In this document: positions 34,809 to 39,751 of the stretch, piece by piece
Position numbering within the stretch: the first letter of the stretch is position 1
How the letters are laid out: the number at the start of each line of letters is the position of its first letter
DNA from: Candidatus Vesicomyidisocius sp. Agig_15_S12
GTDB lineage: Bacteria > Pseudomonadota > Gammaproteobacteria > PS1 > Pseudothioglobaceae
Assembly: GCA_021730225.1 (NCBI GenBank)
Contig: CP072532.1
Location: 207,230 to 271,229, forward strand
DNA: 64,000 nucleotides
Direction: 5' to 3'
Notes under the pieces: generated by a model
What the model saw: the letters and a program-made list of their open reading frames with translations, nothing else
Database searches by the model: none
Told to the model about the DNA's origin: nothing
Made by a program: the position numbers and the translations under genes

Positions 34809-35257
34809 AATATTATAGCATAGGTTTTTTGTCGGTAATGTTAATACAAATCAATTTTTGTAGTGTAATGCTCTATTTCTTTTATCACATAATTGATATT
34901 AAATAAAACTAAACCAAAAATTGGAATTAAATTAATTAAATGAACACTTATTTGTGAGCAATATTGTTGTTGTTTATTTAATTTTTAATCTTTCATATCT
35001 ATTGTTTTTTTCACCTTTGTTAACTCAAAATAGGGTTAAGTTATTGATATGAATTACTATATAAAATATAGCATAACGAACCTAAAATTGTATGATCTTT
35101 GAGAGAAAAATACCAATGACCTGATTGATGTTACGCCGTGTTAAATTAGATATTCCCTTTTGTAGCTGCAAGTAGGAATATTATTTTCAATATTTTTATT
35201 GCAGACAGATAGATAAAACTAGAGATTGTGTAGACCTTGTCAATATTAAAGACAAAC
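34809..35257. other. 449-bp non-coding stretch
   Basis: No frame of interest on either strand and no recognised relic. Several A/T homopolymers. Lies downstream of the Smr gene and upstream of the small membrane gene (both minus). Confidence 0.55.
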
Positions 35258-35740
35258 TTAGTTTTGTTTTAAAAGGGTAAATACTGCACCTGTGCCACCA
35301 TCTTTAGGCGGGCAAGAATTAAAAGCTAATACCTCAGGATGTTGACGTAAAAAACTAGCCACTTGGCTTTTTAAAATACTATTATCCTGGCTAGAATTAT
35401 AACCTTTTCCATGAATAATATGGATAAATTTCTGGTGTTGATGGTAGTGAATAAATTTAGATAATGATTGACATGCTTCAATGGTAGTTTGGCCGTGTAA
35501 ATCTAATATTGGTGCGTGACTGATATTACCTTGTTTCATTCTTTTAATTATTTTTGGTGAAACGCTATTTTGGGCATAGTTAATTATAGCTGAACCAGCT
35601 AGACTGCCGTGAGTAATATAGTTATAGGCTTTAAAGGCTTTTTTCTTAGCTAAGTTTTGAAGTGCGATTTTGTCTTTATTAACAGGAACACTGTCTTCAA
35701 TGGTACTTCTAAATAATATTTTGTCTGACTTGCTTATCAT
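35258..35740 (-). CDS. Smr-domain protein
   Basis: 160 residues; the C-terminal half is an Smr domain with LDLHGQTTIEA near 80 and HIIHGKGYNSSQDNSILKSQV near 107-127, ending with the PPKDGGTGAVFTLLK tail of the SmrA/SmrB group. The N-terminal 70 residues are basic. In E. coli SmrB cleaves mRNA at collided ribosomes; SmrA is less understood. Which one this is cannot be told: the DLHG motif fits the active group. Confidence 0.88.
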   Translation of the reverse strand: MISKSDKILFRSTIEDSVPVNKDKIALQNLAKKKAFKAYNYITHGSLAGSAIINYAQNSVSPKIIKRMKQGNISHAPILDLHGQTTIEACQSLSKFIHYHQHQKFIHIIHGKGYNSSQDNSILKSQVASFLRQHPEVLAFNSCPPKDGGTGAVFTLLKQN

Positions 35741-35842: not shown

Positions 35843-35874
35843 TATCACAAACTCCTTTTAAGGAGTTTGTGATA
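35843..35874 (-). terminator. Stem-loop after rpsT
   Basis: 14-bp perfect stem (TATCACAAACTCCT / AGGAGTTTGTGATA) with loop TTTA, 16 bp past the rpsT stop. On the minus strand only a weak U-rich tail follows, so it may act as a 3'-protecting hairpin rather than a classical terminator. Confidence 0.7.
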
Positions 35875-36850: not shown

Positions 36851-37942
36851 TTATCTGTACTCAATAATTGCACCGCCAAGACAAGTTTCATTATCATAAA
36901 AAACAATGGATTGTCCTGGAGTAATTGCACGTTGGGGTTTATTAAAAATAATTTTTAATTTCTTGTTATTATCCTGACTAATCATACAAGATTGTGATTG
37001 CTGACGATAGCGTATTTTGGCGTTGCATGTCAGTGGTAGTGTTGGTGGTGTGTTAATCCAATAAGGTTTAGAAGTATTTAAGGTTTGATAATATAACAGT
37101 GTGTGATCACCTTGTACGACTACTAGTTCATTACGTTCAATACATTTATCTGCTACAAACCAGGGTTTACCTGATTTACCAAAACCTCCACCAATTTCTA
37201 ATCCTTTGCGCTGACCTATTGTATAAAAAGCTAAACCTTGATGGTGCTTAATAAATTGTCCTTGTTCACCTACAATATTGCCTTGTTGTTTTGGTAGATA
37301 GGTTGCTAAGAATTCAGTAAATTTACGTTTACCAATAAAACAAATACCAGTTGAATCTTTCTTTTTAGCAGTGATAAAACCATTTTCTGTGGCAATATTA
37401 CGTACATCAATTTTATTGGTCTCACCCAAGGGAAATAGACTTTTTGAGAGTTGATATTGACTTAAAAGATGTAAAAAATAACTTTGGTCTTTGTTGTTGT
37501 CTAAACCTGTTTTGAGTTGATAAGTTCCATTTTTTTTAGCAATACGAGCATAATGTCCTGTAGCAATTTTATCTGCACCTAGTGATGATATAGCATGGTT
37601 TAAAAATGTTCCAAATTTAATCTTTTTATTGCATAAAATATCAGGATTAGGTGTTCGACCTTTTTTGTATTCTTTTAGAAAATGGGTAAATACATCGTTC
37701 CAATAATCTACTGAAAAATTAATAGTATGTAATTTTATACTAAGTTTATCGGTAATACTTTGTGCATCAGATAAGTCTTGTTTAGCGCTACAATATCTGC
37801 CTTTGTCGTCTTCTTCCCAATTTTTCATAAACAATGCTTCTACCTGGTAGCCTTGTTTAAGTAATAATAGTGCAGTTACTGAAGAATCAACTCCGCCTGA
37901 TAAACCAACTATAACTTTAGTATTTTTATTTAAATTTTTCAT
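36851..37942 (-). CDS. mnmA: tRNA 2-thiouridylase MnmA
   Basis: Thiolates U34 of Lys, Glu and Gln tRNAs. PP-loop SGGVDSSV at 15-22, Cys in NPDILCNKKIKFG (about 103) and catalytic Cys in STGICFIGKR (about 200), GQRKGLEIGG. 363 residues (E. coli 368). Upstream is 1.3 kb of empty DNA, so it must carry its own promoter. Confidence 0.97.
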   Translation of the reverse strand: MKNLNKNTKVIVGLSGGVDSSVTALLLLKQGYQVEALFMKNWEEDDKGRYCSAKQDLSDAQSITDKLSIKLHTINFSVDYWNDVFTHFLKEYKKGRTPNPDILCNKKIKFGTFLNHAISSLGADKIATGHYARIAKKNGTYQLKTGLDNNKDQSYFLHLLSQYQLSKSLFPLGETNKIDVRNIATENGFITAKKKDSTGICFIGKRKFTEFLATYLPKQQGNIVGEQGQFIKHHQGLAFYTIGQRKGLEIGGGFGKSGKPWFVADKCIERNELVVVQGDHTLLYYQTLNTSKPYWINTPPTLPLTCNAKIRYRQQSQSCMISQDNNKKLKIIFNKPQRAITPGQSIVFYDNETCLGGAIIEYR

Positions 37943-38342
37943 ACATTAAAATGATGCACTGTATTAATTTATATCTAACAATGTTTTTAGATATAAAATG
38001 ATAAAATAGAATTTTATTCTATTGTGGTGTTTCTTGTCTCATTTAAAATTTATACCTAGTATAAATATTAGTGATATTAGTTACACTATCTTAAGTACAT
38101 TTTATCCAGGAATTGAAGTTCATTATTTCATACACTTTATCATAAATAAGAGTCAATCTTTTTATTCATATTGCCAGATAAAAATCTAATTTTTTCCTCA
38201 ACTATAGAACGTACTAGAATTAGTTGGCATATATTATATTATATTATTTTATTTTAATGGGTGCGTGTTACTGAAAAATAAGTCTTATAGCATAGCACTC
38301 TTTGTAGTTTTTCATATTATTTACATAGTTTTGTTGATTTTA

Positions 38343-38387
38343 ATTACGCATATTAAATCAATTTACCCTTGATTTAATATGCGTAAT
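38343..38387. repeat. Long perfect hairpin, 19-bp arms, 7-base loop
   Basis: ATTACGCATATTAAATCAA, loop TTTACCC, then the exact reverse complement. No open frame surrounds it and the closest genes are over 400 bp away. No adjoining T-run of terminator type. Function unknown. Confidence 0.95.
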
Positions 38388-39043
38388 CTCATTTTGTTAA
38401 GTTATTATTTTATGTGAGTGATTATGTGCTGTTTATTTTCTATAATATTATAATCTCCATTATTGGTAATTTAAACAAATAAATATCTAAATTATTTATA
38501 ATAGGGTTTAAGTACTAGTCAAAATTACTCAAAAATATTTGATTAATTGTCTTGTATTGTTAATTTTAATGATGAAATTACATTTCGTATATTTTATTAT
38601 TAAAAACCATTATTTTTGTAGATGTATAGATTGGTATTAATTAAATAGAAAGCTTTGCATAATTATCATCATATTGATTCTTATTAATATTGAAGAATAA
38701 AATATGTATAGATGATTTATGTTAATAAAAATAGAGTGTATGTTATCTATGTAACAAAGTGTTAAGTTTTTTACAATATATTTGATCCAGAGCTATAAAT
38801 AAGTGGAGATTAATTTGGATTTGGATAATAAACAGCACAATCAAAATTCTGTTGAATTAGGTTGTAATAAGCTGTCGTTAATATTTATCAAAAATTAACG
38901 TATAGGATATTATAGTTGCTAAAACGAAATAATATTTTGTTTTTATAGACAAACGTATATGTAGTTCTTCTACAGTCATTTGAAATAATATTCAGTTAAA
39001 AATGCTGTGATAGTTTTTGGCTATTCGTGCCTCGTCTATTTTG

Positions 39044-39072
39044 TTGACATCATAATAAAATTTTTGTATTTT
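39044..39072 (+). promoter_or_regulatory. Candidate promoter for the PCuAC gene
   Basis: Perfect -35 TTGACA at 39044-39049, 17-base spacer, then TATTTT at 39067-39072 (four of six to TATAAT). About 180 bp upstream of the start codon. Confidence 0.45.
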
Positions 39073-39182
39073 TTTTATTAAGGATTATAGTATAGTTTAT
39101 GGTATATGATATGCTAGAAGCAGTTGGATTTTAGCATGATACTTTTTTGCGTTTTTAATAGGAATAAGCGCGAAGATATGTT

Positions 39183-39215
39183 GTTATTCTGTTTCTAATT
39201 TGAGAACAGAATAAC
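39183..39215. promoter_or_regulatory. Inverted repeat upstream of the PCuAC gene
   Basis: GTTATTCTGTT...AACAGAATAAC, 11-bp perfect arms, with inner CT/AG pairing extending the stem. It sits 36 bp upstream of the PCuAC start, downstream of the candidate promoter. It could be a repressor site or a 5'-leader hairpin; no T-run follows. Confidence 0.6.
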
Positions 39216-39250
39216 AGTAACAACTTTAATTCTTAAGAAAGGTAAAAATT

Positions 39251-39751
39251 ATGTTTAATAAAGTAAAGAAACTTATATTAGCATTTATTATTTTAATAAT
39301 TTTGTATGTATCCATTGTAATGGAACATCATCAAATGAACCAGATTACATCTGAAATTGTTATAAATGATCCATGGATACGTTTAGCACCAACTAATGCA
39401 TCAGTATTGGGTCTTTTTATGCAAATTAATAATAATACAAATCATGATATTAAATTACTTTCTGTAAATGCTGTCGACTATAAGCGTATTGAATTGCACA
39501 GAACTGTGATGCAAGATGATATGATGAAAATGGTTAAACAGGAATTTATGATAATTCCAGCCAAAGGTAAGCTACATTTAAAACCAGGTAGTTGGCACAT
39601 TATGTTAGTTAGTCCTAAGTTAGTGTTACATAAAGGTGATATAGTGATGATTGAGTTGATTTTTGACAATGGTTTGACAAAAAGCGTACATGCTGAAGTT
39701 AGAACAGGAAAGAAAATGATAGATAATCACCATAGTATAATGCATGAGTAA
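39251..39751 (+). CDS. Periplasmic copper chaperone PCuAC
   Basis: Delivers Cu(I) to the CuA site of cytochrome c oxidase. 166 residues: N-terminal hydrophobic anchor/signal (7-24), then the PCuAC domain (INDPWIRLAPTNASVLGLFMQI). The copper motif H-x10-M-x21-H-x-M is exact: His83, Met94, His116, Met118. An extra His/Met-rich tail (NHHSIMHE) and an N-terminal MEHHQM could add copper binding. Ribosome site AAAGG. Followed after 390 bp by an SCO gene with the same purpose. Confidence 0.92.
   Translation: MFNKVKKLILAFIILIILYVSIVMEHHQMNQITSEIVINDPWIRLAPTNASVLGLFMQINNNTNHDIKLLSVNAVDYKRIELHRTVMQDDMMKMVKQEFMIIPAKGKLHLKPGSWHIMLVSPKLVLHKGDIVMIELIFDNGLTKSVHAEVRTGKKMIDNHHSIMHE

Follow-up and report, generated by a model that had tools for sequence, protein, structure and literature searches.

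A perfect hairpin within a dead phoH gene of a clam symbiont, probably perfected by replication template switching

In Escherichia coli, template switching that perfects quasipalindromes is an established source of mutation (PMC7202029; PMC6357072). As described in the second of these, quasipalindrome mutations perfect the repeat, the leading strand is the more mutable of the two, and high constitutive rates are found in recB mutants, not in recA mutants (PMC6357072). Template switching can also create or repair the stems of hairpins (PMC8794818). The locus analyzed here, a hairpin in the genome of a bacterial symbiont of clams, resembles the E. coli cases (the Ripley model; the lacZ QP5/QP6 and thyA hotspots) in that an imperfect repeat has been perfected from the opposite arm (PMC7202029, PMC6357072), but differs from them in that the changes are read from sequences, as fixed differences between species, and that copying at this single site went both ways. 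With the stem-making template switches of Monttinen and Loytynoja (2022, PMC8794818) it shares multi-base reverse-complement changes and new perfect stems; the switches in that report lie in RNA genes, where selection also acts, whereas the present site lies in a dead gene, so that its matching changes require no RNA-level selection. Finally, the homogenization of inverted-repeat arms in Saccharomyces cerevisiae likewise yields multinucleotide mutations, some of them in coding genes (PMC8604942), but there is a difference in outcome—spacer inversion, a known result of template switching, was not seen at our hairpin, where the loop is not inverted.

Searching a limited literature collection, we found nothing that combined a vesicomyid genome with exonuclease VII (ExoVII), or quasipalindromes with ExoVII, and no report that we recognized as the same finding, judged by titles and the openings of abstracts. 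Most likely, the mechanism is a known mutational one that is here clearly seen in a symbiont, with the hairpin as a fresh instance of it.

The hairpin and its genomic setting

The window, by which we mean the whole 64-kb stretch analyzed from the genome of Candidatus Vesicomyidisocius sp. Agig_15_S12 (label G000; labels G001–G011 denote relatives of the same genus), contains a 45-nt hairpin at positions 38343–38387 (Table 1). An earlier note on this DNA had described an exact stem-loop with 19-bp arms, and this description is confirmed: the arms are 100% complementary, a 7-nt loop lies between them, and the predicted RNA fold reaches -21.9 kcal/mol (z = -5.98), with 0 of 200 dinucleotide shuffles equally stable. 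It is the longest perfect hairpin of the window (loops of 3–30 nt), compared with longest hairpins of at most 14 bp in 12 second-order Markov copies of the same 64 kb. The possibility of further genomic copies, also raised in the note, was settled by a search of the whole 1,033,397-base genome, in which the hairpin is single copy and the sole second match is its own reverse complement. An isolated palindrome in intergenic DNA might suggest a dispersed hairpin repeat or what is left of a mobile element; this reading is refuted by the single copy together with the aligned homologous site, where relatives carry phoH-derived sequence at the same place, and we give it practically no credence.

The hairpin had further been described as standing alone in a 1.3-kb gene-free stretch. 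The stretch (37943–39250) is indeed free of genes, and is bounded by mnmA on the minus strand and by a PCu(A)C-type copper chaperone gene on the plus strand, but it is not featureless, as two decayed reading frames lie in it, one of them phoH and the other a frame that is open in G002. At the corresponding place, G011 has an intact phoH of 305 aa (Pfam PhoH, E=1.1e-96). The gene is recognizable over its whole length in one match in G002 and G009, and is reduced to pieces in G001, G005, G006, and the Agig_15_S12 genome. In the last of these, tblastn with the G011 protein detects one piece, corresponding to residues 87–115 (E=0.002), and this match spans the hairpin, which is thus made of dead phoH coding sequence.

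The second decayed frame, at about 38720–39090 (+), corresponds to an open frame of 131 aa in G002 (L033 1343–1738) without a Pfam match. At 39182–39216, on the upstream side of the PCu(A)C gene, lies a 12-bp hairpin that can also be recognized in G006, G001, G005, G002, G009, and G010, and in G006 one of its pairs has changed from T-A to C-G; going by its sequence, it is either a candidate functional stem, and as such a better one than the hairpin in phoH, or possibly another paired conversion.

Table 1. Positions of the hairpin and neighboring features within the 64-kb window
Feature	Positions	Strand	Remarks
mnmA-type tRNA modification gene	36851..37942	-	Pfam PF03054; downstream of former phoH
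Decayed phoH, extent approximate	37950..38580	-	Limits from alignment with relatives
Left arm of hairpin	38343..38361	.	ATTACGCATATTAAATCAA; G -> TA, right arm as source
Loop of hairpin	38362..38368	.	TTTACCC here, TTTACGC in relatives; orientation kept
Right arm of hairpin	38369..38387	.	TTGATTTAATATGCGTAAT; AA -> CG from left arm; GG -> GA
PCu(A)C copper chaperone gene	39251..39751	+	Pfam PF04314; other flank of gene-free stretch

Arm changes specific to the Agig_15_S12 genome

We compared the site in an alignment of eight genomes (Agig_15_S12 and seven relatives) and in a four-species alignment, and found the perfect form of the hairpin in one of the eight. Conservation in sister species, which the earlier note had left as a question, does not hold in this between-species comparison. 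G001 and G006 carry ATTACGCATATGAATCAA / TTTACGC / TTGGTTTAATATGAATAAC, an imperfect inverted repeat with a bulge and mismatches; the repeat is likewise imperfect in G002, G009, and G010; the left arm and loop are deleted in G005; and G003 is diverged at the site. The predicted fold energies are -7.0 kcal/mol in G001 and G006 and about -2.4 to -3.0 kcal/mol in G002, G009, and G010, against -21.9 kcal/mol in Agig_15_S12.

Relative to its closest relatives, the Agig_15_S12 genome shows five substitutions and one insertion of its own in the arms, and all six restore pairing; a sixth substitution specific to this genome is the loop base. In the left arm, G has become TA, which equals the complement of the right arm. 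In the right arm, GG has become GA, AA has become CG (equal to the complement of the left arm), and the end base has changed from C to T, although this outermost base is ambiguous as a specific change because T is also found in G002 and G003. Two of the tracts reproduce several bases of the opposite arm, and the copying directions of the two are opposed. The site thereby bears the marks of quasipalindrome template switching—an imperfect ancestral repeat, changes complementary to the opposite arm, and clustered tracts.

Could independent point mutations have come to match by luck? The dead region does change fast, with 64 of 965 sites specific to this genome (6 of the 44 comparable sites, plus the one insertion, in the hairpin with its loop, vs 58 of 921 in the flanks). 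However, when six substitutions and one insertion were placed at random on a relative's sequence 40,000 times, perfect arms reached 13 bp at most and never 19; moreover, the observed changes are clustered (a two-base change and a substitution-plus-insertion), and such sites occur in excess across species, as described below. The chance of a lucky match is therefore negligible. An artifact of assembly or sequencing that copied one arm deserves mention insofar as the arms in this genome are known from the assembly consensus. Yet the copying direction differs between the two arms, the genome consists of one contig, and the separate genomes of relatives also hold long perfect inverted repeats, all of which make an artifact very improbable.

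As judged from the aligned sequences, we consider it highly probable that the hairpin is a mutational product, namely a quasipalindrome perfected by replication template switching inside the dead phoH, and it is probably without function. Because its arms would have been matched by copying errors in a dead gene, it informs on mutation, not on a working element. The phoH coding sequence would by chance have held a weak, imperfect inverted repeat; after the gene died in the clam-symbiont lineage, the nascent strand would sometimes have folded back during replication, copying one arm from the other. In one tract the left arm would have served as template for the right, so that TTACGCAT became ATGCGTAA; in another the right arm would have been the template for the left, turning TTTAATA into TATTAAA, with exact arms as the end result. 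Since the stem would be lengthened by each switch, the following switch should be easier, and the process would act as a small ratchet toward perfection.

The alignment itself shows that the ancestral repeat was imperfect, which changes are specific to this lineage, which way they ran, and that they fit the opposite arm exactly; from these observations we infer the replicational template switch, a count of two or more events, and the feedback. A single switch fails to account for all changes at the site, as both arms were copied and in opposite directions, a result that bears on the number of events rather than on the mechanism. Copying in two directions requires either two or more events or a single repair of a folded strand that left a mosaic. 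Under the latter alternative, one event of mismatch correction in an extruded hairpin or cruciform would leave a mosaic of both arms, and the derived arms are indeed a mosaic of left and right sequence that could be obtained at once in this way. MutS (TIGR01070), however, was found in 0 of the 12 same-genus genomes (11 of 14 controls were positive), making canonical mismatch repair an unlikely cause and mosaic repair of the folded strand less likely; overall we regard such a single correction event as unlikely.

The earlier note had proposed selection or recent origin to explain the perfect arms, reasoning that drift should quickly erode such symmetry in decaying DNA. Recent origin is supported by the restriction of the perfect form to one aligned genome, whereas neither selection nor a functional RNA is, and the premise of quick erosion leaves out the mutational process that makes symmetry. 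A selected RNA element might be a plus-strand terminator, a small RNA, or an insulator stopping stray transcription between the divergent genes. The very stable fold, the arms that are perfect with no later mismatch, and a loose consensus scan that finds the plus strand terminator-like (tail CTCATTTTGT; shuffle mean 0.1) are all compatible with this idea. Nevertheless, the hairpin lies between divergent genes and follows a gene end on neither strand, its sequence derives from phoH, and its stem is imperfect or lost in 7 of 7 aligned relatives. As for a terminator, only 4 of the 19 pairs are GC and the T tract is short, with four T in a row; the note's statement that no U-run makes this a standard terminator is qualified by the positive scan. 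Searched against Rfam at a relaxed E-value, the region gave chance-level matches only, none at or above the gathering score (the best, MIR7993, reached 22.9 bits vs a cut-off of 100). The dead gene, the divergent flanks, the lack of sister-species conservation, and the lack of an Rfam match at the gathering score leave selection unsupported, and a selected RNA element is in our estimation distinctly unlikely.

Converted inverted repeats in four sister species

The comparison was extended to the 64-kb window and the neighboring 100 kb (164 kb) in Agig_15_S12 and the orthologous stretches of G001, G005, and G006. As a conversion we counted a perfect inverted repeat with arms of at least 12 bp in which at least two lineage-specific substitutions gave at least two new pairs. 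Over both blocks and the four species there were 77 perfect inverted repeats with arms of at least 12 bp, and 16 of these were conversions (five in Agig_15_S12, six in G006, four in G005, and one in G001), whereas 60 replicates in which substitutions were permuted locally averaged 0.57 and never exceeded 3. With arms of at least 15 bp, eight conversions compare with a permutation mean of 0.03 and a maximum of 1 (60 replicates). Reading frames hold three of the 16—those of a CLC-type channel gene and of homoserine dehydrogenase (named by the window homologue) and a frame of 114 codons—and so not every conversion can be a terminator. A second set of 60 permutations, divided by place, gave a mean of 0.2 and a maximum of 2 in frames, and a mean of 0.78 and a maximum of 3 outside them.

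Mirror repeats, which template switching should not affect, served as a control: 4 of 13 were converted, two of the four being tandem arrays, so that it is only the number of conversions, and not the converted fraction, that is higher in inverted repeats. By this control the contrast is less extreme than by the permutations. We inspected 14 of the 16 conversions, and at least two of the 16 are poorly aligned (block T 20205 in Agig_15_S12 and block T 16538 in G006, both among the ten inspected in the four-species alignment). Clear two-way conversions were seen in G005 and G001, and one-way conversions in Agig_15_S12 and G006. The clearest companions of the phoH site are block T 68511 in Agig_15_S12, resting on two informative relatives, whose left arm has acquired GTTATGCTTC, complementary to the right arm, and block T 30175 in G005, with each arm altered to resemble the other's complement, as in phoH. 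At 35843–35874 a 14-bp hairpin with both arms changed relative to the relatives adjoins the 3' end of a frame that we take to be rpsT-like, and this conversion may be a selected terminator of that gene. With poorly aligned sites and a possible terminator among the 16, the excess is clear in its direction in these sequences and uncertain in its exact size.

Other long hairpins were also encountered. In G005, a perfect hairpin with 25-bp arms and a 3-nt loop (L146, about 1033–1085, homologous to about 8289 in the window) has a left arm with no aligned counterpart in the three sister species, which show a gap there, and from this alignment looks like a new inverted duplication. In the block G000:C1 271230–371229, at about 32060 within it, hairpins with the same core have arms of 22 bp in Agig_15_S12, 20 bp in G006, and 31 bp in G005; arm length thus varies between species.

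Repair gene content and implications for the symbionts

ExoVII suppresses quasipalindrome template-switch mutations in E. coli. Its large subunit, XseA (TIGR00237), is missing only in Agig_15_S12 among the 12 same-genus genomes; a remnant at 35032–35268 (-) corresponds to the first, N-terminal 77 codons of xseA (tblastn E=1.15e-10), and XseB is present. We looked for a raised conversion rate following the loss of ExoVII and saw no rise: by the lineage counts given above, conversions are no commoner in Agig_15_S12 than in G006, and for this reason we do not claim XseA loss as a cause. Among other repair proteins, SbcD exceeded its cut-off in 0 of 12 genomes, and the absence of SbcCD may let long hairpins persist. 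ExoI is present in all 12. RecA exceeded its cut-off in 7 of 12, and is absent in Agig_15_S12, G001, G005, and G006 and a fragment in G003; its lack in the genomes of the 1.0-Mb group agrees with clade I of PMC3202245. RecB did so in 0 of 12, with a model that clears the cut-off in only 1 of 14 controls.

We tentatively propose, as a possibility on which we would not yet rely, that the repair-poor genomes of vesicomyid clam symbionts allow a self-reinforcing ratchet of template switching, by which weak inverted repeats throughout the genome, in dead and even in coding DNA, would become long and perfect hairpins. The absence of MutS and SbcCD, together with the loss of RecA or, in Agig_15_S12 alone, of XseA, may contribute. 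If this proposal is true, paired, covariation-like changes would arise in these genomes without RNA-level selection. What merits further attention is the wider excess of conversions in these symbionts.

In a decaying genome, even a perfect hairpin that catches the eye does not have to serve a function, for symmetry can come from mutation. The excess among four sister species calls for caution in RNA discovery, where paired changes in both arms usually count as proof of a selected stem. At the same time the symbiont lineages, which differ in genes known or suspected to act against template switching, provide a natural system in which these ideas are testable.
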